Source: a virus. From it: 33,160 nucleotides of DNA. The notes beneath the pieces were generated by a model, which searched no databases, was not told the origin of the DNA, and worked only from the letters and a program-made list of their open reading frames with translations. A program made the position numbers and the translations under genes. The stretch spans positions 1 through 33,160 of IMG/VR virus record IMGVR_UViG_3300042111_000094; one strand, written 5' to 3'. Below, piece after piece: positions 1,644 through 29,705 of this stretch (position 1 is its first letter; each line of letters opens with the position of its first letter).

Positions 1644-1934
1644 TTACCTCAGTACTGGTTTAAAAGATATTGCCGAAATGCTTTCGCCATTCTCTCCCAT
1701 AATATCATCAAACCCAATAATGAAATAGAGATCAAGACCTCGTGGGGCAACAAAACCACGTGCGATTGCCGCTGCTTTTGCTGCTTGATTGACAGCACTT
1801 GCTCCGATAGCGCGAATCTTTGGAAGATGACCAGCAATAATTGATCGGGCAAGGATAGAGCCAACGCTTTGAGGGTTGCTACTTCCTGATACTTTTAAAA
1901 CATCCTCAACTTTTTGATTAAGTTCTTGTGACAT
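1644..1934 (-). CDS. spoVS-like: SpoVS-family (stage V sporulation protein S, Alba-like) protein
   Basis: The 96-residue product matches the SpoVS family over nearly its full length. Residues 12-22 read VLKVSGSSNPQ. Residues 40-64 contain the hallmark IRAIGASAVNQAAKAAAIARG followed by FVAP. The C-terminus is SISAISFKPVLR, close to the end of bacterial SpoVS. The Bacillus protein is 86 residues, so this one has about ten extra N-terminal residues. The family has an Alba-like fold and is thought to bind nucleic acid; in Bacillus it affects entry into sporulation. An AGGAG stands 6 nt before the ATG. The gene lies between a recombination-nuclease gene and unknown small genes, so a role in binding phage or host DNA/RNA is plausible but inferred. 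Confidence 0.9.
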   Translation of the reverse strand: MSQELNQKVEDVLKVSGSSNPQSVGSILARSIIAGHLPKIRAIGASAVNQAAKAAAIARGFVAPRGLDLYFIIGFDDIMGENGESISAISFKPVLR

Positions 1935-1968
1935 ATAGACTCCTGTTTGTAAAACATACGGAAAGCCT

Positions 1969-1979: not shown

Positions 1980-2342
1980 TTACGTGAAATTAGCGGATTT
2001 TAACAAAGCAACCATGTCTTCTAAGCGCATAACTGCATATGATTCGCCTAAAGCTGCTGCCCCTTTTCCAGGTCTTTTTACAACCAATAAAGGCAAACCT
2101 TTGGGCAACTTAGATGCTTGGGTCACCGTATCGTTTAACCATTCGCTTAGCTTAAAAGACTTTTGGTTTTTGCATTGAATTGCTACCTCGGTGGCATCAG
2201 GGTGCTTAACTCCATGAATATCCCCAGAATCGTTTTCTCCAGCCAAGGCTGTTCTTCTGGCGTTAATAAATTCCTTTTCTTTTAGATAACCAACAATGGC
2301 GGTCTCAAAAGAAGTACCTTTTGCTTTATGTTTGTTGCCCAT
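1980..2342 (-). CDS. PD-(D/E)XK nuclease, Hjc/Holliday-junction-resolvase-like
   Basis: The 120-residue protein has the layout of small archaeal-Hjc-type nucleases that are common in actinobacteriophages. It starts with basic residues and KGTSFE (Glu13). ALAGENDSGDI follows, with Asp41 as the metal-binding aspartate, then VAIQCKN (residues 53-59). In the last motif Gln56 stands where Glu or Asp is usual before Lys58; Q-x-K variants are known in the superfamily. It would cut branched or structured DNA made during recombination and replication. It lies in one transcription unit with RecA, a Cas4-like nuclease and another resolvase-like gene. Specific activity is inferred from the fold only. Confidence 0.75.
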   Translation of the reverse strand: MGNKHKAKGTSFETAIVGYLKEKEFINARRTALAGENDSGDIHGVKHPDATEVAIQCKNQKSFKLSEWLNDTVTQASKLPKGLPLLVVKRPGKGAAALGESYAVMRLEDMVALLKSANFT

Positions 2343-2544: not shown

Positions 2545-3030
2545 TTAGGCAATAAACCGTGCGGCTCTGTTTTCTTTTGGAGCAAGACTAATGCGACGAC
2601 TTAACTCTCTTGATAAAACTTGAGCACCTCGTTCACACCGATCAAAAACTGTATCTACAAGTTTTCGGTAAGCACGTGCCTGTGTATACGCTTCTTGATG
2701 CTTTTGCACTTTGTCTTCAACGTCACGTTTTGCTTTAGCAATAGTTACCAACTCTCCTTTTACTTTGTTGCCCCATTGCTCAATCAAGGTACAAGCTTTC
2801 ACATACTCAAATGCGTTTAATTCACGCTCTTCAACAATTTCGGCAGTTACTAATTGTGCTTTTGCATAATTAACCCAAGACATGAATTCAGAGTACAAAG
2901 ACATCAATTCAGTTTCTGAAATGTCACCAAGGTTTCGTGGAACCACCGGAAGTAGGCTGTGTGGTTTTTCAGGTAATACAAAGTTTTTTAGGAACCTGTC
3001 CATCTCTGGAATTTCTTTTTCAATCATCAT
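2545..3030 (-). CDS. Hypothetical helical protein, 161 aa
   Basis: Unrecognised. Apart from a Pro-rich stretch near residues 20-33 (VLPEKPHSLLPVVPRNLGD), the protein is charged and looks almost entirely alpha-helical. It has a probable coiled coil over residues 55-145 (heptad-like Leu/Val spacing with Glu, Lys and Arg). The end (RRISLAPKENRAARFIA) is basic. I chose the ATG at 3028-3030, which overlaps the Cas4-like stop as ATGA; a second ATG one codon later has the TTGGAG ribosome site at a better spacing. A GTG four codons upstream is less likely. Tight linkage to the Cas4-like nuclease suggests a partner in DNA end processing, which is inference only. Confidence 0.65.
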   Translation of the reverse strand: MMIEKEIPEMDRFLKNFVLPEKPHSLLPVVPRNLGDISETELMSLYSEFMSWVNYAKAQLVTAEIVEERELNAFEYVKACTLIEQWGNKVKGELVTIAKAKRDVEDKVQKHQEAYTQARAYRKLVDTVFDRCERGAQVLSRELSRRISLAPKENRAARFIA

Positions 3031-3893
3031 TTGCTCCAACACGTGTTCTTATAAGGACAGTACTTGCAACCATTGCAAGTCGCTGCTTCTGCCCACGCTG
3101 GTCGCATGGGTGGAATCTTTTGTTGTAATGCTACTAGCAATACACGACAACTATCAAGTATGGGCTGAACAAGGTGTGGTAAATACTTAATTGAAAACTC
3201 TTTAGCTTCTTGGGATGGCTTCCATTCATAAATAAAAGTTAGGTCATGTATGCCAGTGCAGTGCATATACAACATTCCTTGGCGGACATGGCTAGGAAAT
3301 GGTTGGCGAATCTTTTTCCATAGACCATCAATGCCCATACTGGGGTCTTCCTCATACTGTTTGTATAAATCAAAATCTTCAAAACGAACTGTGCCTACTC
3401 CAACAGATTTTATTTCAATTAAAGTCCTTCCCTTTTTGTCTGAAACAATGCCGTCAGCACTTCCTCGGATGCCGTGCTCCCCATCTTGTACCGGAACTTC
3501 GGCGTAACGAAGTGCAATAGTTGAGGCACACTCTGGGCAATGGTCTGGAGACAAATCCCACCACAAATGGTTGCAGGACCCGCAATTAAAGTTTCCTTCT
3601 AGTACTCCTGCTTCCCAAAGCCAGGTTTGCCATTTGTAGTGAATAGCATGACCTTCTTCAAAAACGTTTAAGCGTTGGAAAGAAAAGTTTTCGTCAGCTT
3701 TAACTTCGTTTTTAATGGTATACCAAGACGCCCTTGGACACCAATCTTTCTTTGCTAATTCGCTGGGATGAAAAAAAGATGTGTCTCGTTTTTTATCTTT
3801 TTGTTTTTTATTTTTTAACAACTGAATTGCAACAGTTGGCAAAACCCTACCGTTCATTTTTAATAGGTTTTTGTAATTGTGCATGTCAGACAT
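3027..3893 (-). CDS. Cas4-like PD-(D/E)XK exonuclease with Fe-S cysteines and an inserted zinc-finger-like CxxC pair
   Basis: The 288-residue protein has the RecB/Cas4 nuclease layout. Cys52 in DWCPRASWY is the first cluster cysteine. His82/His85 follow in EEGHAIHYKW, Asp147 in GSADGIV, Glu160 and Lys162 in LIEIKSV, and Gln205 in VRQGMLYM. The C-terminal CNGCKYCPYKNTC (Cys273, 276, 279, 285) would complete an iron-sulfur cluster. Between the helical part and the first catalytic strand an extra CxxC-x11-CxxC set (Cys104, 107, 119, 122) looks like a zinc ribbon. Phage Cas4-like proteins are DNA exonucleases thought to support recombination. There is no cas1, cas2 or repeat array nearby, so this is not a CRISPR gene here. 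The start overlaps the previous gene by 8 nt. Confidence 0.85.
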   Translation of the reverse strand: MSDMHNYKNLLKMNGRVLPTVAIQLLKNKKQKDKKRDTSFFHPSELAKKDWCPRASWYTIKNEVKADENFSFQRLNVFEEGHAIHYKWQTWLWEAGVLEGNFNCGSCNHLWWDLSPDHCPECASTIALRYAEVPVQDGEHGIRGSADGIVSDKKGRTLIEIKSVGVGTVRFEDFDLYKQYEEDPSMGIDGLWKKIRQPFPSHVRQGMLYMHCTGIHDLTFIYEWKPSQEAKEFSIKYLPHLVQPILDSCRVLLVALQQKIPPMRPAWAEAATCNGCKYCPYKNTCWSK

Positions 3894-4224
3894 CAGTTGT
3901 TATCTCCAAAAAATCATCTTCACCAATGACCACGTAACGACGACCAGCGAGGTCAAACTGCAACACAGGTACACGATCTTCAAGTAACGCACGATCCCTC
4001 AATTCTCGTAAATCTATTTCTTTAAGAGTAATTGTTTTCTTGTTTTCCGTCAATTTATTTTCAATTAAGTATTCGTGACTACGAACATCATTTTTCCTAA
4101 GCCATCCTGCTCCAGACCGTGCATTCCTAGAACCTTTATAAGTATCAGCTGTCCTTTTTTCCTGTTTCTTAGAGGACTTCATGATTCGTGTGTGTCTGTC
4201 CGGATCTCTCCCTAGTATGGTCAT
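3886..4224 (-). CDS. Small PD-(D/E)XK nuclease, Holliday-junction-resolvase-like
   Basis: The 112-residue protein has a basic N-terminus, then GAGWLRKNDVRSHEYLIENK. Asp46 followed by Glu55-x-Lys57 forms a compact PD-(D/E)XK signature. It ends with RRYVVIGEDDFLEI, which looks like a closing strand and helix. This arrangement is typical of short phage nucleases annotated as resolvase-like. The start is tied to the RecA gene by an ATGA overlap; an internal ATG at residue 15 is a less likely alternative. Directly behind RecA, it probably acts on branched recombination intermediates. The nuclease assignment rests on the motif, and family membership is less sure than for the 120-aa protein. Confidence 0.6.
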   Translation of the reverse strand: MTILGRDPDRHTRIMKSSKKQEKRTADTYKGSRNARSGAGWLRKNDVRSHEYLIENKLTENKKTITLKEIDLRELRDRALLEDRVPVLQFDLAGRRYVVIGEDDFLEITTDV

Positions 4225-5243
4225 CTAACTACTTTGTAATATTCTTCAATGTCGTGTTTTAATTCTTTTTGCATAAATAAATCTTCTCGAAAAGCTTCAA
4301 GCATTTTGTCTTTTCCTTGCCATTTTTGACTGCCATAAGCATAGTAAGCCCCTGAGCGTGTGATTACTTCAATCACTGTTGCAATGTTAATCATGTCTTT
4401 CAAAGTATCAAACGAACCTTTGGTAAAACCAGGTGCATCCGTGAAGTAAAAATCAACAACTGCTTGTTGTGACGGCTTGTATGTTTTGTTTTTTAAAGTC
4501 CGAGCTTTAATAGTTTGCCCTACAATTTCGTCTTTGTCTTTAATCCACTCATCACGACGAACTTCAACTCTGACAAAATAACTAAAGTTTTTGGCAAGAC
4601 CTCCGGGTGTTGTTCTGCTATCTCCCCACATAACGCCAATCTTCTGACGCCATTGGTTAATCATCAGACCTGTGCACGAGCGTTCTTTTTCTACCATTGA
4701 ACGCTTCTGTGCTTCTGAAGCTTTGCGAAAAAACTTTGAAGTAATACGAGCACCTAAACCTACGGTGAATTCATCCATCATTCGTTCTGATTCATCTGTA
4801 GGCACAAGTGCTGGCAACGAGTCAATGACGATGCAATCCGCGGCACGATTCTTCATTAACTCAATGACCAAGTTGTACGCTTGTTCCATACTGTTTGTTT
4901 CAATAACCCACAGGCGAGCAAGGTCAACACCAACGGCTTTTGCGTAATCGGGCACAAACTCTTCTGCGGCAACCCAAACTGCTGTCCAATCTGGGTTAAG
5001 TGCTTGGTTGGCCGCAATAGTTTTGAATGCTAATGCTGTCTTTCCAGATGATTCGTCACCAATTATTTCTGACCATTGGTTTGCTGGCCAACCACCGCCA
5101 AGCATCAAATCGTAAGCAAGTATGCCGGTGGTGGTGCGCTCTAATTGCTGGTGCATTGCATCAGCCCTTAAAATTGAAACGTCGTTTTGTTTTTTGTTTA
5201 TTTTGTTAATTATTGCCGAGATTGACTCGTAATCGGTTTCCAT
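4221..5243 (-). CDS. recA-like: RecA-like recombinase
   Basis: A 340-residue RecA/UvsX-type ATPase. The Walker A loop is GDESSGKT at 62-69, close to GPESSGKT of bacterial RecA. The Walker B strand is CIVIDSLPAL (137-146), and Glu94/Glu95 in VAAEEFVP is in the position of the RecA catalytic glutamate. The DNA-binding loop region is INQWRQKIGVMWGDSRTTPG (195-214), matching RecA around loop L2. It would form filaments on ssDNA and drive strand exchange. I start at the ATG at 5241-5243, which has GAGGA about 7 nt before it. The longer open frame upstream overlaps the zinc-ribbon gene and is not likely to be used. Flanking nuclease genes point to a phage recombination system. Confidence 0.93.
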   Translation of the reverse strand: METDYESISAIINKINKKQNDVSILRADAMHQQLERTTTGILAYDLMLGGGWPANQWSEIIGDESSGKTALAFKTIAANQALNPDWTAVWVAAEEFVPDYAKAVGVDLARLWVIETNSMEQAYNLVIELMKNRAADCIVIDSLPALVPTDESERMMDEFTVGLGARITSKFFRKASEAQKRSMVEKERSCTGLMINQWRQKIGVMWGDSRTTPGGLAKNFSYFVRVEVRRDEWIKDKDEIVGQTIKARTLKNKTYKPSQQAVVDFYFTDAPGFTKGSFDTLKDMINIATVIEVITRSGAYYAYGSQKWQGKDKMLEAFREDLFMQKELKHDIEEYYKVVR

Positions 5244-5253
5244 TTTGTGTTCC

Positions 5254-5628
5254 TCATACTGACCACAGTGCTTGGTCTGCTTGTTCATATAACCCGTTCC
5301 ACCCACATTCAAAACATCTTGGTGCTGGTGAATGCCCAAGACTACCACCGTTTGATCTACTAAATACGTTTTTGCTACCACATCGTGGGCAGGAAAGAGA
5401 ACCTTCTCGTCTGTGGGCTTCCCCACCCTTCCACGTGCGTATTGCTGTACCCATGTCTGTTTGCCCAGCAGGGTCTCTATGTTCTTGGGTATCTATTGGT
5501 TTTTGCGCAGCAACTGATGAAATTTGTTGACGCAGTGCAGGAAGAATTACATTCTTGGTTACAGGAGGAAGAGAAGTATTCTCTTGTTGGTCTTTGTTAG
5601 CTAACTTTTTATCCCACCACGATGACAT
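5254..5628 (-). CDS. Zinc-ribbon protein, 124 aa
   Basis: The first 75 residues are polar and probably disordered. The C-terminal part contains a clear zinc ribbon: CPRCGSKNVF around residues 80-89, then CFECGWNG at 105-112. The pattern is CxxC-x21-CxxC with aromatic Trp after the second pair. Such ribbons often bind DNA or RNA polymerase or act as protein adaptors; nothing here picks one. I start at the ATG at 5626-5628 (AGAGG/GAGG about 10 nt upstream in TGAGGTTTGCACAAC). A TTG three codons earlier would sit only 2 nt from that site. It stands between the polymerase-associated gene and recA. Confidence 0.75.
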   Translation of the reverse strand: MSSWWDKKLANKDQQENTSLPPVTKNVILPALRQQISSVAAQKPIDTQEHRDPAGQTDMGTAIRTWKGGEAHRREGSLSCPRCGSKNVFSRSNGGSLGHSPAPRCFECGWNGLYEQADQALWSV

Positions 5629-5640
5629 GTTGTGCAAACC

Positions 5641-6003
5641 TCATTCCTCATCATACTCAACATGCCCAAGCAAAGCAACTTTTTGATTTGACAATAATTT
5701 TTGAACCAATGCCATACTATATGACAAGATAACTCCCTTGGTGCTTTCTACTATTTCGGCGTTGGGTCCTTGAAGTTCGGGCTGTGTGGTTGACAATACT
5801 TGGATAAACCACTCAACAGACTCTACTATTTCGTCAAAAATGCCAAAATCGTGTAATGTCTCCCACTGATTTTCTATCAATTCATTTTCTAATTCTTCAA
5901 CGTCTTTTGAAACTGGAGCAAAACCTAGTTGATTAGCAACGCTTTGCCCTGTTTGAGAAGACAACATTAAACAAAAATTTCGTTTATCAAGAGTAGTTGT
6001 CAT
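5641..6003 (-). CDS. Hypothetical acidic protein, 120 aa
   Basis: Unrecognised, acidic and mostly helical in appearance, with the acidic patch DVEELENELIENQWE (near residues 34-48) and an acidic C-terminus (YDEE). The start is firm: the ATG overlaps the polymerase stop as ATGA and has GGAGG 7 nt upstream (GGAGGCAAAGC). The close coupling to DNA polymerase suggests co-expression with the replisome; function is unknown. Confidence 0.7.
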   Translation of the reverse strand: MTTTLDKRNFCLMLSSQTGQSVANQLGFAPVSKDVEELENELIENQWETLHDFGIFDEIVESVEWFIQVLSTTQPELQGPNAEIVESTKGVILSYSMALVQKLLSNQKVALLGHVEYDEE

Positions 6004-8048
6004 TGCTTTGCCTCCGCCCAACTTCGTGCCGAGTGACACGAAACTTTTAATGTTACTCCCATGATATCTCTATTATGACCCATGGCGGTTATTAACGTAT
6101 TTATTGAGTCTTCTTCTTGATCCTCTGGAGTAATTGCAACAAGTTCGTCGTGAACTTGAACAAGCATCTTTGTTTTTGTATCTTTAAATGCTTTATCAAC
6201 ATCAATCATTGCTTGTTTGCAAATATCAGCAGCACTACCTTGAATGATGGCATTAATTGCTTGTCGCTGTGCTCTAGAAACTAATTCAGAAGAACGAGAT
6301 GACAAGTCAGGTAAACGCCTGCGTCGTCCACTAATTGTGGTGACATATCCTTTCTTAGTGGCTGTGGCAATAGCCGTTTGTTTCCACTTAGTCAGGCCGT
6401 GAAAACTCTTGTAATAAGAAGCCAGTAGTTCCTCGGCATGCTCTGGTGTTATGCCAGTGACCCTAGCGAGTTTGGTTGAACCACCACCATATGCTGTAAG
6501 GAAATTCACACCCTTACCTATCTGCCGTTCTTCTGAAGTTATTTCATCAACATCTTTTTTGAATACAGCAGCAGCCGTTGCAGAGTGAATGTCCTCGTTG
6601 TTTTTAAAAATCTCAAGCAAGCGAACGTCTTGGCTGAACATAGCCATAACACGCAACTCAATCTGATCGTAGTCAGCAACCAACATTATGTACCCATCAG
6701 GTGGTACAAATAGTTTTCTAATGCTGGAATCACGTGGGATGTTTTGAAGGTTCGGAGATGACGAAGACAAACGCCCAGTGGCTGTTCTATGTAAGTTGAA
6801 TGAAGGATGTAATTTGTTGTTGTTTAGTTTGGGCAACAAACCATCTACATAGGTGTTCTTTAGTTTTTGAGTTTCTGACCACTCAAGCAAGAGTGGAATA
6901 ACTGGATGCTTACCCCGAAGACTTTCCAGAGACTCAGTGTCTACTGATGGTGCGCCCTTTGGTGTTTTCTTGGTGGGCTTTAAACCTAGCCCACCTTCTC
7001 TCTTTTTATTAAATAAAAACAATTGCTTGTCCTTATTTGAGTCTGGATTGAATCCAGGGTAAGCAAACTCTGATAAAAGTAATAAAGTGTCATTTAACTT
7101 TGTGTCTAGTTCTTTTCGCAAATTCTTTAAATTGTAACCATCTACGGTTATGCCCTCTTGCTCCATGCTCATCAATACCTGAAGTACATCCATGTCTTGT
7201 TTCATTACTGGCAGTAGTGAGGATTCTGCTTTTAGTTTAGCCATCAATTTGACGTACAACATCCATGTCCAGCGAGCGTCTAAATGAACATAACGAGATG
7301 CGACTCCGTAAGAAACTGAGTCAATGGTCTTTCCAAGCTTTCCTTCTTTGTCATAGGGAGCATGGTTACCAAAGTTGTGCAAAATTAAACTTACTAAAGA
7401 GAAACTAGGAATGTTCTCGTCGCAAATATGTTGTAAGACCATTGTGTCTCTGTATGGTCCTGGCGGTAATTCCCCGTAATACTTTTGGATGGACAAAGCA
7501 TCAAACTTTACGTTGTGACCAACCTTTATGGTGTTACCAAAGAAGATCGGGCGCAAAGCTTCAAACACGTCATAGCGAGACAATTGTGTTGGAGGCTCAC
7601 TGTATACAGGCGGAATGTAATACTTAGTTTTTGCCAACGAAGTCTTTCCGTTCTTCAAAACCTTGCGATACTCCGGTGGTGGCAAAGTTGCTCCGTCCCC
7701 ACGTTGCTCAGGGACAAGCATTTCACCTATTTTATGACCCATAGGAATAGCCCACGAATGTCCGTGGGTTGCAATACCTAACCAAAACACTTCATTGCGA
7801 AGTGGGTTAACAGCAAGGTCCTTCAAATAGCGTTGGCGAATAGCTTCAGTAGACCTTTCAACAACATCCTCACTGGGATTCTTAAGCGTCGCAATGTGCT
7901 GTTTACACTCTTTTTGAAAGTGTGTATTCACATCATCGTGACGCTCAAGAACACCCCGTGATTCAATGTCAAAAGCAAACGAGCCAAATTCTGTGACTAC
8001 GTCTACTATCTGCTTTAATTCCTCAACGGTGTTTACCGTCTTGTACAT
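6000..8048 (-). CDS. polA-like: DNA polymerase I (family A) with 3'-5' exonuclease
   Basis: A 682-residue replicative polymerase lacking the 5'-3' exonuclease domain of cellular Pol I. Exonuclease residues are Asp27 and Glu29 in FAFDIESRG, Asp183 in GHNVKFDALS, and Tyr253/Asp257 in YVHLDARWT. There is a long spacer in the exonuclease part (residues 31-90). Polymerase motif A is VADYDQIELR (Asp459), motif B is RQIGKGVNFLTAYGG (508-522), and motif C is VQVHDELV (His633-Asp634-Glu635). The residue equivalent to E. coli Phe762 is Phe516. RTATGRLSSSSPNLQNIP (421-438) is the classic conserved block. All catalytic residues are present. It starts 3 nt after the SSB stop and ends coupled to the 120-aa gene. 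Confidence 0.97.
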   Translation of the reverse strand: MYKTVNTVEELKQIVDVVTEFGSFAFDIESRGVLERHDDVNTHFQKECKQHIATLKNPSEDVVERSTEAIRQRYLKDLAVNPLRNEVFWLGIATHGHSWAIPMGHKIGEMLVPEQRGDGATLPPPEYRKVLKNGKTSLAKTKYYIPPVYSEPPTQLSRYDVFEALRPIFFGNTIKVGHNVKFDALSIQKYYGELPPGPYRDTMVLQHICDENIPSFSLVSLILHNFGNHAPYDKEGKLGKTIDSVSYGVASRYVHLDARWTWMLYVKLMAKLKAESSLLPVMKQDMDVLQVLMSMEQEGITVDGYNLKNLRKELDTKLNDTLLLLSEFAYPGFNPDSNKDKQLFLFNKKREGGLGLKPTKKTPKGAPSVDTESLESLRGKHPVIPLLLEWSETQKLKNTYVDGLLPKLNNNKLHPSFNLHRTATGRLSSSSPNLQNIPRDSSIRKLFVPPDGYIMLVADYDQIELRVMAMFSQDVRLLEIFKNNEDIHSATAAAVFKKDVDEITSEERQIGKGVNFLTAYGGGSTKLARVTGITPEHAEELLASYYKSFHGLTKWKQTAIATATKKGYVTTISGRRRRLPDLSSRSSELVSRAQRQAINAIIQGSAADICKQAMIDVDKAFKDTKTKMLVQVHDELVAITPEDQEEDSINTLITAMGHNRDIMGVTLKVSCHSARSWAEAKQ

Positions 8049-8051
8049 TGA

Positions 8052-8771
8052 TTACCGTGCGTCGTTGATCTCGGATGAAATGTCCAAAAGTTCTGAACGT
8101 GTCGGTATTGAAATAATTTCAGGTGTATAGCAATTGCGCTTAAGCACAGCCATGTCTTCATCTGTGTAGCCAACCATTGACCACTCTGACAAGTCACGCT
8201 CACGAACCATTTGAAGAATGGTTTGTGTTTGCGCACCTTTGCCAGTTTTAGATACTGCCCAGTAGTTTTTGGACAATGGACCTTGACGAGGGTCTGTGTG
8301 AAAGTTCTTAAGTTGATCAATCAAACGAACGCCAACCTCAAATGACTTAACTGATAAGTCTCCATCTTCGCCAAGTACTGCAATGTTGAAAGCAAACTTG
8401 GTTGATGGGCGATTACCAGCGTCACAAAGTGGGCAACCTTCAGGATGATCTGCCAAGCAAACAAAAGACTTTTGACCAGCACGGCCATCAATCCAGTGTG
8501 TGCGAAACGATGCATAAGGTTCGTCCTCTAGGAACTTAATAATCTGTGGGTCTTCTGTGACCTTGAAACGTTGAGCAAACGCTGAAGTTGATTCTTGCAC
8601 TTTTTGTGCTGCACCCCAACCGCGGTTGATTACGCTTCTCTTTGCAGTAGTAGCTACTGGTGTTTCTACTCGCTCTTTTTGAGTAAGTGATTCTTTCTTT
8701 GTTTCAACTTTGACAGGCGAATCAAACTCTACTTCGTCTGTGTCAAAGTCATCGTCGTATTTATTTGGCAT
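8052..8771 (-). CDS. ssb-like: Single-stranded DNA-binding protein (actinophage type, zinc-containing)
   Basis: The 239-residue protein has an acidic N-terminus (DDDFDTDEVEFD), a linker, then the block GWGAAQKVQESTSAFAQRFK (51-70). IIKFLEDEPYASFRTHWID (77-95) follows, then a zinc site in CLADHPEGCPLC (Cys105, His109, Cys113, Cys116). The rest looks like an OB-type beta domain. This layout is that of the SSB proteins of many actinobacteriophages, functionally comparable to T7 gp2.5 or T4 gp32. It would coat ssDNA during replication and recombination. AAAGGAC lies about 9 nt before the ATG. It is directly upstream of the polymerase gene. Confidence 0.82.
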   Translation of the reverse strand: MPNKYDDDFDTDEVEFDSPVKVETKKESLTQKERVETPVATTAKRSVINRGWGAAQKVQESTSAFAQRFKVTEDPQIIKFLEDEPYASFRTHWIDGRAGQKSFVCLADHPEGCPLCDAGNRPSTKFAFNIAVLGEDGDLSVKSFEVGVRLIDQLKNFHTDPRQGPLSKNYWAVSKTGKGAQTQTILQMVRERDLSEWSMVGYTDEDMAVLKRNCYTPEIISIPTRSELLDISSEINDAR

Positions 8772-22124: not shown

Positions 22125-23893
22125 GTTTGCGATGTTGCAGCAAAACTTAATTTTTTAAATAAAACATCATCTCCGCAAGCTGAAACTTGATCGTAAACTA
22201 TTTTTTGCCCAACTGGGTAAGAAACACCAAATCGTTGAAGAGTGATTTTAATTTCTAACTGCACTCTAAATTTGTCTTGTTCAAAGGGTCGCGGATTAAT
22301 TGCAGCAGGAAGATTCATGTCCCATTTTGCCTCTTCTTGAGCACTAAGACCAAATGCAACAGAATCATTATCTCCAATAATGTGGTCTATGTCATCATCA
22401 AGTAAAGATACTGCGTTAGGAAGATCTTCGTATATTTGACCAGCCCCTGTTGCTATAACTAACGGGTTACTAATTGTCCCCCATTGTTCAAACCCAGCAG
22501 GATACCCTTTAGTTAAGGTTCCTCCAGTAGCCGAAGTCCTAGTTGGTTGTCTTGAATTACTTGCTCCAGATACGTATGAATCCCAATACATTGAAATTGT
22601 TCCTGTCCAGTGAAAAGATGGCTCACCTCCGCCAGCTTTTGACAATGTATTAATTCTGTAATTGAAACCTGCTTCACTTAAGCGTAACGTAAAATTAAAA
22701 CTTTGTTGCGGGTCCGGTTTAAGTATATAGTTTAGTAAATCCTTGCCACCTTTATGATGAGACACGGATTTATAAAAAGACTTAACACCATCTAAAGTTG
22801 CTTTTTCTACTGCTATGTCAGCTTCTGTTTTTGTTTTTTCATCAGGAGCCGATCCAGATTCAGTAAGCGACGGGTCTTGCGTAAGAATAGTTGTTTTTTT
22901 AGCAAAACCAATATATAAAGCTTGCACACTTAGTTCTACAGTTGCCTGTGTTGGAACAAACTTTTTAGAAAATTTATGAAAGTTTACGCTGCTTTCCAAT
23001 ACAAAACCTTCAATAATCATAAGGTTAGATAACACAATACGAACTGGAGTTGGCACCAGGAAAGCTTGGTTACCTAAATTTGCATTATTTCTAGTATCAT
23101 CCAACCAATAAGATGCAGCTTCAGCTGCCAATGTCGCATCCTTGTCTTGTTCATCAGCATTGCTTTCTTCTCCCTCAACTGGTTCGGTTGGGTTTTGTGC
23201 ATTTGATTCGGCAATTTTTTTGATAGTAGTTAAAGTTTCTTTACTTATACCTTGACCAATAACTCCATCCAAAACCATAATGTCAGCAAGAACACCAATC
23301 TTAGTAACCCAAGATTGGTCAAAATTTCCTTCAAGTAGGTCAGCTATATCTTCGGATGTTTCCAAAAGTGGGTTATATACAGAAGAAAAACTTTTGCCTT
23401 TTACTTTTTGACCCTTAGACATGTAGTACCCAGAAGCTACTTCTGCTTCACGATTAAACAAAAGCTTTAAACCGTAAGTGGATTGGCCGGGGATGGGTAC
23501 AGTTAATTGCTCAGGTCTTTGGTTAAAAAAGTACTGTGTGTCATAACTGTTTGCATTTACACTGCGCACAATAGTTTCTGGTTGAAACTGAAAGTTACAA
23601 CGACGACCTTGTATGTCGCTTGCCCCTTCTCCCATACGACTGTAGAATTCATTTAATCTACGAATGTACCCACGTACTGGTTTATACGGGGCGCCACCCA
23701 TTGTTCGGGTTGTTGGACCAGGAAATATAAAATTAGGATTATCTTGCAAACGAGTAGTTGGAGATTCTAAGTTTCCTTCTTTGTAGTAAGAAGTTTGAGC
23801 ATCATTAAACACTTGTGTTGGGGCGGCAACGCCTATTTTGCTACGGCTTCTTTTTAGTTGTGCTTCTTTTTGTTCTTCACGACTCACAGCCAT
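22121..23893 (-). CDS. CIS-tube-like tail protein (tube-baseplate junction), 590 aa
   Basis: Residues 95-160 read CNFQFQPETIVRSVNANSYD, then PEQLTVPIPGQSTYGLKLLF. This matches the start of contractile-injection-system tube proteins: FxFNPe, a helix, then a conserved strand ending in LxFD/N. Later, residues about 275-330 contain TPVRIVLSNLMIIEGFVLES and FVPTQATVELSVQALYIGFA, again typical of the tube-cap family. An acidic, disordered insertion (NPTEPVEGEESNADEQDKDA) lies near 230-250. A poorly characterised C-terminal third follows. It is likely the tube initiator or adaptor between tail tube and baseplate hub. TAATG couples it to the tape-measure stop. Confidence 0.65.
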   Translation of the reverse strand: MAVSREEQKEAQLKRSRSKIGVAAPTQVFNDAQTSYYKEGNLESPTTRLQDNPNFIFPGPTTRTMGGAPYKPVRGYIRRLNEFYSRMGEGASDIQGRRCNFQFQPETIVRSVNANSYDTQYFFNQRPEQLTVPIPGQSTYGLKLLFNREAEVASGYYMSKGQKVKGKSFSSVYNPLLETSEDIADLLEGNFDQSWVTKIGVLADIMVLDGVIGQGISKETLTTIKKIAESNAQNPTEPVEGEESNADEQDKDATLAAEAASYWLDDTRNNANLGNQAFLVPTPVRIVLSNLMIIEGFVLESSVNFHKFSKKFVPTQATVELSVQALYIGFAKKTTILTQDPSLTESGSAPDEKTKTEADIAVEKATLDGVKSFYKSVSHHKGGKDLLNYILKPDPQQSFNFTLRLSEAGFNYRINTLSKAGGGEPSFHWTGTISMYWDSYVSGASNSRQPTRTSATGGTLTKGYPAGFEQWGTISNPLVIATGAGQIYEDLPNAVSLLDDDIDHIIGDNDSVAFGLSAQEEAKWDMNLPAAINPRPFEQDKFRVQLEIKITLQRFGVSYPVGQKIVYDQVSACGDDVLFKKLSFAATSQT

Positions 23894-26577
23894 TAGGTTG
23901 TCCTCAACAATTCTCGTTTAAGATCGTTATCCAGTAATCGGGCTATTTCTTCAGCCATACGTCTTGCGTCTGACGAGTTGTTTCCAGTGGAGGTCACATA
24001 TATGTTCGGAGCAATTGTAACACTAGTACCACCAGCAACTTGTACTGTTGTACCTCCACGAGTAGGTTCGTTTACAATAGGGTCACCTTGGTCAAGACCT
24101 AGTTGGCGAGTAATGGCTTGGGCTTTAGGCATAATTTCTGCCGTTCCCGTCATTGGGTTTCCTTCTTTATTCCATGGAGAATAGTTTCCACCACCAAATA
24201 AAATTCGTGCAGCTTTAATGTTTAATTTAGGGTCGTACAGATCTTCGTTTTTTGAAATACCAAATTGTTGTCTGCGTTTAATTGGGTCTAAACCAACAGA
24301 CTTATCATCCTTCATATTTATTTGAAATAGTCCGTAGGACAAATCGTCAGAGTCGTCTGCAAGAACACCAGGTCGCCACCTTGATTCACGCCAAGAAATA
24401 GCAAGCATGTTTGTAATGTCTTTACCTTTGAAACCACGACGGCTTAGTAATTGGGCAATTTCTGCTGGGTCCATCGCCCCACCAGGCGTTGTTCCAGCAC
24501 CTTGCGGACTCTTTGCGGAACTTTCTCCATAAGCCGCTTTACTTACAACGCCAGAACTAGCAGCCCCATCCATTTTGTCAAAGCTAAAGTTTCCTGGTCC
24601 TGAAACAATGTCGCTAATACTTACTTGGTTAAATGTTTCAGCGCCACCATGACCACCTGGAGAATACTTTGCAAAATATTTGTCACCTACAACATACCCT
24701 CCTGTAGGTTTGCCAGTAGATGGGTCTAGCTTTACTGAACCTTTAGAAGTGCCAGCAGGTTGACCCCACTTAGAACCTTGTTTTTCGTATTCCCATCTAG
24801 AATCTGGAAGCTCTGCTGGTTGAATGTGCCATGGCTCTCCCAAGTTTTTTCCAAATGTTTTTAGTCCATACTTGGATGCATTTTCTTGAACCCAATCAAG
24901 GTCTCCAACTAAGTCTGCAGCCAAACCGATCTCGTGCATAGAACGACCCGGAGGAGCAGCAGGTGCACCTGAAATATGTTTGTATTGTTCGCCATTCCAC
25001 TCAACATCACCAGCAGAACCATCAGTTACTTTTTTGTAACGGCTTAAGAACATAGTCCTTTGTTCAGATTCGGAACGACTACCAACTCCCAAACCAACAT
25101 TAGGATTGTCTGCAAACATTCGCAACAAACGATCTTTAAAAGTAGAGTTTAATGTTCTAAAACTTGTAGAGTTTGATAGTTCACCAAGACTCACACGCTT
25201 TGCAGGACTGCTGTACCCCATTGGTACTTTTGCACTACCGCCTTTTTTTACACCGCTTTCAGGTGGGTCACCCATCATTGTGGCTCCAAGCATACTAAGA
25301 CCAAGACTTGCTCCCATAGACGTAGGAGCCATTAATGCACCTCCAACCATTAGTGCTGCTCCACCAGCTTTTCGTAGGATGCTTCCTCGTGAGGATATGT
25401 TTGCTCCTACAAGGCCGCTTAAAGTTTCTTCTAGTTGCCCAAGTGCCTTAGTAACTGCTTGAGTATTCTTTTCAAATTGGGCTAAGTTATCTGCTTGGCG
25501 TTTGTAGTAATTCTCATCACGTCCTTCTTTAACACGGGCTGTTTCTTCAGCTTGTGTTGCAAAATTCTTCTCAATACCCATGATTTGACGGTCTGATTTT
25601 TTAGACGGGTCATACATAGTTGTTTTGCCAGTCTTCTTTTGGTACTGAATATTGGCATTTGCATAATCCAAAATTTGGTCAATCATGTCTTCCGGAACAC
25701 CGGAAGCCATTAACATAGCTCTAGTGTTGGACCCTGCTTGACGAGCACCAGCAAGTCTTCCTTCGTTTGTTAAACCCGTCCGTTGGACAATTTGTTGCAT
25801 GACTTTATCCATTGAACGTTGTTGTCCACCGAGACCGTACATACCAGTGCCCAACATCATCGTCAATCTGTTGTTAGCAGCAGGTCCAGCAAGCGTGGCA
25901 GCTTGTTGTGCAAGTTGATCTGTACTAATTGAATACCCAGAAAGAGCACGCAACCCAGCAAAACCAGCGGCATTTCCTGCAGCACTTAATCCTGTTTGTG
26001 CTTGCATGGATAGTAGAGTACTGATGCCACCATAGCCAAGTCTTTGACCAGTCATATCTTGGCGCATGCCAATGTATTGCATTTGCGATATGCCTCGTTG
26101 CTGTTGGTAATAAACGCCTAATTTGTCAGCTGACAAAGAACGGTCATAGTTGTTGTCCATTCTTTGGTTCATTGCATCAATGGTCATTGTCAGATACTGC
26201 AAACCTTGTGCTGCGAGGGCGCCACCTTTTCCGCCTCCCCCACCACCCTTAGGAATAAGAGGAACTGCGGCCTGAACAAAAGCTTGGTTTTGAGTTATGC
26301 TCCCAGTAGATGGAGTTTGGCTTTTAGGATCACCAAGTGGTAATGAAACTGCGTAAGGCGTTGCTGAACCACTACCACTTCCAGGTAAACCACCAGCGGC
26401 TTTGATACTTTGGAGATGTTTTAAAGTTTGAGCTAATTGTGCGTTGACACCTTTGAGGCTTTTAGACAAGGCATCAAAGTCGGTACGAATAGATTTAACA
26501 CCCTTGACCAACTTGTCCATTTGATCAACGTCAACTTTAAATTTAGCTCTTAAGTCTCCTAAGTTTTTTTCTGCCAT
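23893..26577 (-). CDS. Tape measure protein with M15 peptidase and lytic transglycosylase domains
   Basis: An 894-residue protein. The N-terminus is helical (DQMDKLVKGVKSIRTDFDAL), then Gly/Ser-rich, Gln-rich and helical to about 400. A hydrophobic segment lies at 404-432 (AGGAALMVGGALMAPTSMG). Residues 500-590 form a D-Ala-D-Ala carboxypeptidase (M15/VanY) domain: RSESEQ, SMHEIGLAADL (His548, Asp555) and EPWHIQP (Glu581, His584), all the zinc and catalytic residues. Residues 705-800 are a transglycosylase: Glu731 in SWRESRW, then LSYGLFQIN. It sets tail length and digests peptidoglycan during DNA entry. The size and place after the tube and chaperone genes support this call. AGGAG lies 6 nt before the ATG. 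Confidence 0.85.
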   Translation of the reverse strand: MAEKNLGDLRAKFKVDVDQMDKLVKGVKSIRTDFDALSKSLKGVNAQLAQTLKHLQSIKAAGGLPGSGSGSATPYAVSLPLGDPKSQTPSTGSITQNQAFVQAAVPLIPKGGGGGGKGGALAAQGLQYLTMTIDAMNQRMDNNYDRSLSADKLGVYYQQQRGISQMQYIGMRQDMTGQRLGYGGISTLLSMQAQTGLSAAGNAAGFAGLRALSGYSISTDQLAQQAATLAGPAANNRLTMMLGTGMYGLGGQQRSMDKVMQQIVQRTGLTNEGRLAGARQAGSNTRAMLMASGVPEDMIDQILDYANANIQYQKKTGKTTMYDPSKKSDRQIMGIEKNFATQAEETARVKEGRDENYYKRQADNLAQFEKNTQAVTKALGQLEETLSGLVGANISSRGSILRKAGGAALMVGGALMAPTSMGASLGLSMLGATMMGDPPESGVKKGGSAKVPMGYSSPAKRVSLGELSNSTSFRTLNSTFKDRLLRMFADNPNVGLGVGSRSESEQRTMFLSRYKKVTDGSAGDVEWNGEQYKHISGAPAAPPGRSMHEIGLAADLVGDLDWVQENASKYGLKTFGKNLGEPWHIQPAELPDSRWEYEKQGSKWGQPAGTSKGSVKLDPSTGKPTGGYVVGDKYFAKYSPGGHGGAETFNQVSISDIVSGPGNFSFDKMDGAASSGVVSKAAYGESSAKSPQGAGTTPGGAMDPAEIAQLLSRRGFKGKDITNMLAISWRESRWRPGVLADDSDDLSYGLFQINMKDDKSVGLDPIKRRQQFGISKNEDLYDPKLNIKAARILFGGGNYSPWNKEGNPMTGTAEIMPKAQAITRQLGLDQGDPIVNEPTRGGTTVQVAGGTSVTIAPNIYVTSTGNNSSDARRMAEEIARLLDNDLKRELLRTT

Positions 26578-28160: not shown

Positions 28161-29705
28161 CTAGATAGATGTTGCTGTTGATCCACCAGTAAATTGACTG
28201 ATGTTGATTACAATGAATTCAGCAGGAGTTTGCAAAGCAACTCCAACTTCAATATTTACTTGTCCGTCTTCTACCGTAAGGTTCGTGTTGTTTGTTGAGT
28301 TACATACAACATAGAAAGCCTCGCCAGTAGTTCGTCCTTTCAAACCTCCAGTGCCCCAGAAGTTAGTAAGAATAGCCGAAACCTTAACGCTAAGGTCTGA
28401 CCACAGGCGCTCGTCGTTTGGTTCAAACAAAGCATATGCTGTTGCTTCCTTTAACGTTTGTTTTAGGAAGTTGAGTGAACGACGAACAGTGATGAACTTA
28501 TCTGTTGTGTTTCGTGCTTGTGTACGGGAGCCATTAATAATTACGCCAACTCCAGGAACAATACTAAACAAGTTCAATTGTTCTGTTTTGTACAGTTGAC
28601 CTTGTTCTGCTTCGGTAAGTGTGGCTACAAGACCAAATACGTTGCGCAAATCCAAACCGTAACCAGCTGGGGCTTTTGCAACGCCTCGTGCTACTTCGGA
28701 ACGAATCATTGCACCAACTACGGCACCACCACAAAAAGTGTTGCGGATTGCTGCAGCACCAGATTTTGTTGGGTCATACATTTTAAGAGCTGGTCCATAA
28801 ACAGCTGCATAGCTTGATTGTGTGTACCCAGCAACTGCTGACGACAATGAAGCCTTAGTAGTTGACGTTAATGGGGTGTCTACAACCAGGAACGAATTTC
28901 CCCTAGAAATCATCTTAGTGATTGCGTTGTTTACGATTGTAGATGAAGTTTGACCAACTAAGTTAAAAATTAACGATTGCTGGTTTGCGTCATAAGCATT
29001 TAAAGCTGTTGACCAATCCGATGAGTCAATTGAACCAACACCATCGCTACCGTTTGCAAAAGTTTTAGTAACTGCATACGAAGACGATGTCAATCCGGTA
29101 ATTGTAAGTTCAGCACCCACTGCAACAGTAGCAACGCTTGCTGTTGTTACATATGATGAATAGAGATCAAGAATTGTTGTAATGTACCTGTTTTGCTCAG
29201 GGTCAACTGACAGTCCAGACCATTCTTCTACTTGTACACCACCAAGTTTTACAGTAACTGTAAACAGCGTATTTTTTGTAAACTTTGGAGTTGTTGTAGG
29301 TGTGGTTAATGTGGTGTTATCAAAAGTATAGTCAACAGTTAAGTTATTTCCCCAAACGCCAACCGACTTAGCTTCAAGTGTCCAAATGTCTGCAGCAGAA
29401 CCTACTCCAGGTGTTCCTTGAATAGTGCTAGTAGCTTTTACAGCAGAACCATCGGCAACACGTGTAACATAAGCTGCTTGACCACCGTTTGCAAAAAAGT
29501 GGTAAACCGCGTAACCAAGATCGTAAGCATTGTCCAATGCCCCAAACAAACTTGTGTATTGTGCCCAGCTTGTTACTAGGGCTGGTGTAGTTGGTCCTCG
29601 TTCAGCTGTGCCTACAAACGCTGCAGCCGTAACCCCTGTGTTTGCTTGAATGTTGGTAGTAAACGCCGATTCTGAAACGTATACTCCTGGACGCTCATAT
29701 GCCAT
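28161..29705 (-). CDS. Tail sheath protein
   Basis: A 514-residue protein with the start MAYERPGVYVSESAFTTNIQ and then TAAAFVGTAERGPTTPALVT (26-45), which is the classic sheath opening. LGYAVYHFFANGGQAAYVTR (64-83) follows. The C-terminal part has GARTQARNTTDKFITVRR-like text and the strongly conserved LWSDLSVKVSAILTNFWGTG, then LKGRTTGEAFYVVCN. It forms the contractile sheath and defines the tail as myovirus type. A good ribosome site (AGGAG) precedes the ATG. Confidence 0.97.
   Translation of the reverse strand: MAYERPGVYVSESAFTTNIQANTGVTAAAFVGTAERGPTTPALVTSWAQYTSLFGALDNAYDLGYAVYHFFANGGQAAYVTRVADGSAVKATSTIQGTPGVGSAADIWTLEAKSVGVWGNNLTVDYTFDNTTLTTPTTTPKFTKNTLFTVTVKLGGVQVEEWSGLSVDPEQNRYITTILDLYSSYVTTASVATVAVGAELTITGLTSSSYAVTKTFANGSDGVGSIDSSDWSTALNAYDANQQSLIFNLVGQTSSTIVNNAITKMISRGNSFLVVDTPLTSTTKASLSSAVAGYTQSSYAAVYGPALKMYDPTKSGAAAIRNTFCGGAVVGAMIRSEVARGVAKAPAGYGLDLRNVFGLVATLTEAEQGQLYKTEQLNLFSIVPGVGVIINGSRTQARNTTDKFITVRRSLNFLKQTLKEATAYALFEPNDERLWSDLSVKVSAILTNFWGTGGLKGRTTGEAFYVVCNSTNNTNLTVEDGQVNIEVGVALQTPAEFIVINISQFTGGSTATSI

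Follow-up and report, generated by a model that had tools for sequence, protein, structure and literature searches.

A SpoVS-family gene beside Holliday junction resolvase genes in BRock-like contractile actinophages: probably an accessory of DNA recombination, not of sporulation

The SpoVS family is widespread in bacteria, and where viruses carry a member it is being classed as a 'sporulation' gene through which host dormancy is manipulated. What such a gene does in a phage is the question raised by the window analysed here, the whole stretch of a 33,160-bp IMG/VR record, in which coding is almost wholly on the minus strand and genes for sheath and baseplate, a DnaC-like loader, DnaB, primase, helicase, single-strand DNA-binding protein (SSB), PolA, RecA/UvsX, a Cas4-like exonuclease and a resolvase are followed by SpoVS. 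The initial annotation had assigned the gene to a contractile phage, which is borne out by a tail sheath (phrog_23, E=8e-47) and baseplate wedge proteins. The features needed below are as follows.

1644..1934, minus strand: SpoVS-family protein with Alba-like fold, 96 aa (PF04232, 3.3e-20; phrog_35646, 1.4e-15; AlphaFold2 model)
1939..1944, minus strand: ribosome-binding site AGGAGT, 4 nt 5' of the SpoVS ATG, GGAG core retained in relatives
1980..2342, minus strand: PD-(D/E)XK-type Holliday junction resolvase-like protein, 120 aa, encoded by the gene immediately preceding SpoVS (phrog_244 'RusA-like HJR', PF24608-like)
2545..3042, minus strand: conserved protein without family match, 165 aa, in the exonuclease-resolvase interval (cluster 8, 64/81 loci)
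3027..3893, minus strand: Cas4-like / PD-(D/E)XK exonuclease, 288 aa (phrog_2506, 6.1e-36)
3886..4224, minus strand: conserved unknown protein, 112 aa (cluster 5, 72/81 loci)
4221..5426, minus strand: RecA/UvsX-like recombinase (phrog_97, 3.9e-54; 33-35% identical to bacterial RecA)
6000..8048, minus strand: DNA polymerase I-type polymerase (phrog_17, 1.1e-124; best cultured matches Streptomyces phages Alone3/BRock)
8052..8771, minus strand: single-strand DNA-binding protein (phrog_14578, 1.2e-07)
28161..29705, minus strand: contractile tail sheath (phrog_23, 7.9e-47; best cultured matches in the BRock/GiJojo group)

The window gene is a genuine member of the SpoVS family with an Alba-like fold. 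Its open reading frame (ORF) runs from 1934 to 1644 on the minus strand, a strand that the initial annotation had omitted while placing the ORF correctly, and the product contains AIGASAVNQAAKAAAIARG. A profile search returned the SpoVS family (PF04232) with 72.1 bits, where 24 would have sufficed, and aligned residues 11-91 with positions 1-80 of the 83 in the profile; PHROG 35646, a 'sporulation protein', was matched as well, and a profile of viral relatives found Thermus SpoVS 2EH1 (E=1.7e-13). An AlphaFold2 model based on an alignment of 19 viral sequences has a mean pLDDT of 88.8 and a beta-alpha-beta-alpha-beta-beta arrangement. The top Foldseek rank is held by 9A7H, an integrative model named YUND-SP5S (a SpoVS complex, judged by name), followed by Thermus SpoVS (2EH1/2EK0, TM 0.81-0.89) and then archaeal Alba (1NFH and 3TOE, E ~1e-3); the RNA-binding Alba relatives Rpp20/25, Pop6/7 and IF3-C are also among the matches. 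Because of these Pfam, PHROG, 2EH1-profile and Foldseek matches, the identity is far beyond chance: the full-domain profile, the signature block and the SpoVS fold are all present, and the model with its Foldseek matches has the fold of the Alba superfamily, of which SpoVS is counted a member (PMC11621453). The full SpoVS core and Alba-like nature first read from the letters are thereby confirmed.

Compared with bacterial SpoVS (Bacillus, Thermus 2EH1/2EK0), the phage protein has the same fold and the signature A(I/V)GAxAxNQAxKAxAIARG, but the two are about 50% identical at best, and the phage clade has motifs of its own (SNPQSV, RAIGASAVNQ, APRG and GFDDI). Archaeal Alba proteins such as Sso10b share the fold (TM ~0.56-0.61) while being only 16-22% identical in the best matches, and they lack the acidic character of the phage beta3-beta4 hairpin (GFDDIxGENGE). 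The mean net charge of phage SpoVS is about +1 (+1.3). DNA-binding Alba proteins have basic arms.

The strong ribosome-binding site that had been noted is present at 1944..1939, as is the 45-bp gap between the preceding gene and SpoVS. The possible -10 box reported in this gap found no support, as the gap sequence varies among relatives and a promoter scan of the 45 bp found none; a private promoter for SpoVS was accordingly rejected.

By PolA and sheath, the closest cultured relatives are the Streptomyces phages Alone3, LuckySocke, GiJojo, pSt2308 and BRock. Relative to the BRock group, PolA is 32-34% identical over its full length and the sheath 34-35% over 97%, and the order DnaB-primase-helicase-SSB-PolA-RecA is common to both, so that replication gene order and PolA/sheath affinity place the window phage among the BRock-like phages (relatives of Borockvirus). 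WhiB is an actinobacterial family, and WhiB genes were found in 31 of the 35 long relatives of the window phage; these genes and the PolA and sheath affinities point to actinobacterial hosts, likely WhiB-bearing Actinomycetota. Two other ORFs of the window deserve mention. The RecA-like ORF as called (4221-5426) overlaps a conserved zinc-ribbon-like ORF (5254-5637, minus strand), and the length of its relatives suggests that the called start is probably too far upstream, with the real one about 60 codons further in. An 894-aa tail tape-measure-like protein (23893-26577, minus strand), for which a PHROG search gave no match, seems by eye to include two enzyme-like stretches, one resembling a VanY peptidase (SEQRTMFLSRY...GRSMHEIGLAADL) and one resembling lysozyme (SWRESRWRP...YGLFQIN).

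SpoVS is strictly linked to a resolvase gene in these phages. Two clades of viral relatives are distinguished here: clade A, which contains the window protein, and its sister clade B (L374-L426 except L396). In clade A, where the block consists of RecA, Cas4-like exonuclease, resolvase and SpoVS, the PD-(D/E)XK resolvase cluster, with invariant D38, D41, Q56 and K58 in an alignment, was present in all 81 loci found through SpoVS. The resolvase immediately precedes SpoVS in 56/56 loci with the SpoVS ORF called, one of which has a spurious reverse ORF in between; in the remaining 25 of the 81, the greedy gene call replaced the SpoVS ORF by another. A search led by the resolvase, in which SpoVS was not presupposed, found SpoVS on the same strand and just downstream in 80/80 loci. 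Every one of the 73 clade-A loci with sufficient flank has RecA upstream and on the SpoVS strand, as do 40 of 48 in clade B.

Clade B has the order RecA, WhiB, Cas4-like, unknown, RuvC-like resolvase, zero to three small genes and SpoVS, the RuvC-like enzyme (phrog_159, E=2e-24) lying 47-1808 bp before SpoVS and being non-homologous to the PD-(D/E)XK resolvase. Neither the PD-(D/E)XK resolvase profile run over the clade-B loci nor the RuvC profile run over those of clade A gave a match. The cultured phages BRock and Alone3, which have genomes of 112-116 kb and infect Streptomyces, resemble the window in carrying SpoVS (BRock gp51, Alone3 gp176; PF04232 E ~1e-23, Alone3 43% identical to the window protein) in a contractile actinophage directly after a Holliday junction resolvase gene, but differ in that this neighbour (gp52 beside gp51 in BRock) is RuvC-like rather than PD-(D/E)XK; the Alone3 resolvase is homologous to that of clade B (41%, E=3e-28). 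The resolvase has thus switched to an unrelated fold while SpoVS kept its place, and no other observation hints as strongly at a functional tie between the two as this single swap does. Alone3 has a second annotated Holliday junction resolvase, gp159, to which the window resolvase shows no similarity by BLAST, so derivation of either from the other is not claimed. In the paper collection searched, four papers name both SpoVS and Holliday, none with a title about phages, and no paper connecting phage SpoVS to resolvases was found. This context appears to be what is novel here.

Several further genes accompany SpoVS in parts of clade B. In some loci (L374-L394, e.g. L379:3565-3909) the RuvC-like resolvase is separated from SpoVS by a DUF1599 'nucleotide modification associated' protein, and metallophosphoesterase or DNA-repair-exonuclease genes occur a few genes past SpoVS (L390:5784-6803; L414:4926-6098), to which the YunD-SpoVS pairing modelled in 9A7H may be relevant.

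The phage proteins also stand apart in phylogeny. A branch with SH-aLRT 100 separates the sequences of clade A, clade B and the Streptomyces phages from every bacterial SpoVS sampled, and the same virus-only split was recovered in a tree without the Streptomyces phages. These trees rest on 95 columns and their inner order is poorly supported; the final one leaves out Bacteroides phage BS162P1, whose very long branch had distorted an earlier tree. The phylogeny suggested at the outset as a way to the donor thus placed the phage clade apart from all sampled bacterial SpoVS with none nameable, and the attempt to name a bacterial donor was given up, the bacterial sequences all lying beyond the supported branch in an alignment of 95 columns. 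The 50 distinct clade-A genes compared have a median dN/dS of 0.096 (~0.01 against nearest relatives), and phage SpoVS is under strong purifying selection.

Viral SpoVS is far from confined to this group. The close SpoVS clade was found at 174 IMG/VR loci by a window-protein scan and 220 by an alignment scan, and a bacterial SpoVS query against the same database gave at least 492 loci. Among 50,697 cultured phage records, a tblastn search with the window SpoVS found no match; the clade-B query found SpoVS in 14, including six Streptomyces phage records, two Lysinibacillus phages and one Bacillus phage. The six Streptomyces records led us to drop the statement that SpoVS is absent from cultured phages. 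RefSeq labels the BRock protein (YP_009831776.1) a 'sporulation protein' and that of Alone3 a 'hypothetical protein', and viral spoVS is reported as an auxiliary or sporulation gene in two virome papers (PMC6172770, PMC8940887). A phage SpoVS gene as such is therefore not new: the view that it is not a usual phage gene holds for cultured phages, where it is rare, and fails for uncultured viral contigs, where it is common and already described. One cultured record stands out: Stenotrophomonas phage TS-12 (MW302330.1, L431) has a SpoVS that shares 83% identity with the one on viral contig L347, the two grouping together within the bacterial-type sequences, and an ABC transporter is encoded close by; the host or identity of this record looks doubtful.

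The soil and marine virome genes are, by description, viral SpoVS-family genes like that of the window, but those papers report them as sporulation regulators, in passages that give no gene context. That phage SpoVS is a sporulation or dormancy auxiliary gene, mimicking or replacing the host protein, has in its favour these reports and the family name, and is nevertheless very improbable. In 397 genomes from the phylum of an Actinomycetota metagenome-assembled genome, 127 have SpoVS above the cut-off and 177 have WhiB; SpoVS occurs in 9/177 WhiB-positive (5%) versus 118/220 WhiB-negative (54%) genomes, the overlap of nine being a hand count from two lists. It was found in none of the 101 genomes of one family of large WhiB-rich genomes (5-11 Mb among the entries listed), probably the Streptomyces family. 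Intact actinobacterial SpoVS scores 105-134 bits against PF04232, compared with 72 for the window protein; proteins in the phage-type score range were found neither in the 397 genomes, except for one frameshifted case (G219), nor in the 27 genomes of one order. WhiB-bearing hosts, which the phages' own WhiB genes suggest, would thus usually have no SpoVS to mimic. A virus-only clade fixed beside Holliday junction resolvases in the recombination block is moreover unlike recent host-derived cargo, which together with the scarcity of SpoVS in the likely hosts argues against the dormancy reading. Of the initial interpretation, the SpoVS/Alba-like identity therefore stands and the host-SpoVS mimicry is disfavoured.

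Considering that the gene is fixed in a recombination block beside an enzyme that cuts branched DNA, phage SpoVS probably assists DNA recombination rather than sporulation. More specifically, we tentatively favour, with nearly as much for it as against it, an Alba-type nucleic-acid-binding accessory of recombination or branched-DNA resolution; that the gene is also a long-established, virus-specific SpoVS subfamily of the recombination/replication block of BRock-like contractile actinophages is held jointly with this role and at the same tentative level. The small, probably dimeric protein would act on the same DNA as the RecA-type recombinase, the Cas4-like exonuclease and the Holliday junction resolvase, might attach to branched or duplex intermediates or link them, and may thereby assist in making or cleaving junctions within concatemers still being replicated, ahead of packaging. 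The early idea of a phage nucleic-acid-binding protein agrees with fold and gene context; binding itself, dimerisation and co-operation with the resolvase are what we infer. Gene linkage does not equal function, and the block of clade A, clade B and BRock goes back to a single ancestral one, so that most of the linkage counts as one event passed on by descent. Independent support comes only from the resolvase swap and from other viral lineages, in which bacterial-type SpoVS lies directly before SSB (L355, L358) or near it (L367), or SpoVS precedes RecT (L370) or DnaD (L368). Real objections to the accessory role are that the protein is only modestly charged and that its hairpin is acidic where DNA-binding Alba has basic arms; the viral SpoVS of the Lysinibacillus, KLEB27-3 and prophage L347-L354 lineages, which has no recombination or replication neighbour, and the many actinophages with a related resolvase but no SpoVS also count against it.

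RNA binding is known for some Alba and YhbY/IF3-C-like folds. Of 62 bacterial loci with enough flank, 38 have SpoVS downstream of RNase Y, and in 34 it is preceded by both recA and RNase Y, all on one strand. The recA part of this agrees with the accessory role, but bacterial SpoVS adjoins RNase Y as much as recA, so a regulator that binds phage or host mRNA and controls its decay or translation can be envisaged, in keeping with the Rpp20/25, Pop6/7 and IF3-C matches. This is unlikely, as the phage has a resolvase where bacteria have RNase Y, the constant neighbours are DNA recombination genes and no RNase or translation gene adjoins SpoVS. Quite unlikely is a transcription or late-gene switch factor acting on host promoters or on the set of genes that follows: in the window and BRock, SpoVS ends the replication/recombination block ahead of small unknown and lysis genes, and SpoVS in Bacillus affects developmental timing, but no promoter pattern or conserved operator was found around the gene, and the WhiB proteins of the long relatives may already serve as regulator. 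A virion or nucleoid protein, packaged with phage DNA or condensing it, would suit the Alba fold, the small size and high conservation, and a location with replication genes on one side and more small conserved proteins on the other; it is distinctly improbable, given that a near-neutral charge is poor for a bulk DNA condenser.

A bolder form of the accessory reading, unlikely but worth stating, is that phage SpoVS works specifically with Holliday junction resolvases, binding junctions or loading the enzyme, and is kept while RuvC-like and PD-(D/E)XK enzymes exchange. If true, bacterial SpoVS near recA would likewise act in recombination or on DNA structure and not in sporulation. BRock, with gp51 beside gp52, offers a simple test system. 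Its records (NC_048650.1 / KX925554.1; L243, L428) carry an annotated RuvC-like resolvase and exonuclease plus a gene in the RecA position, in contrast to the genome announcement, which speaks of missing recombination genes (PMC7453282).
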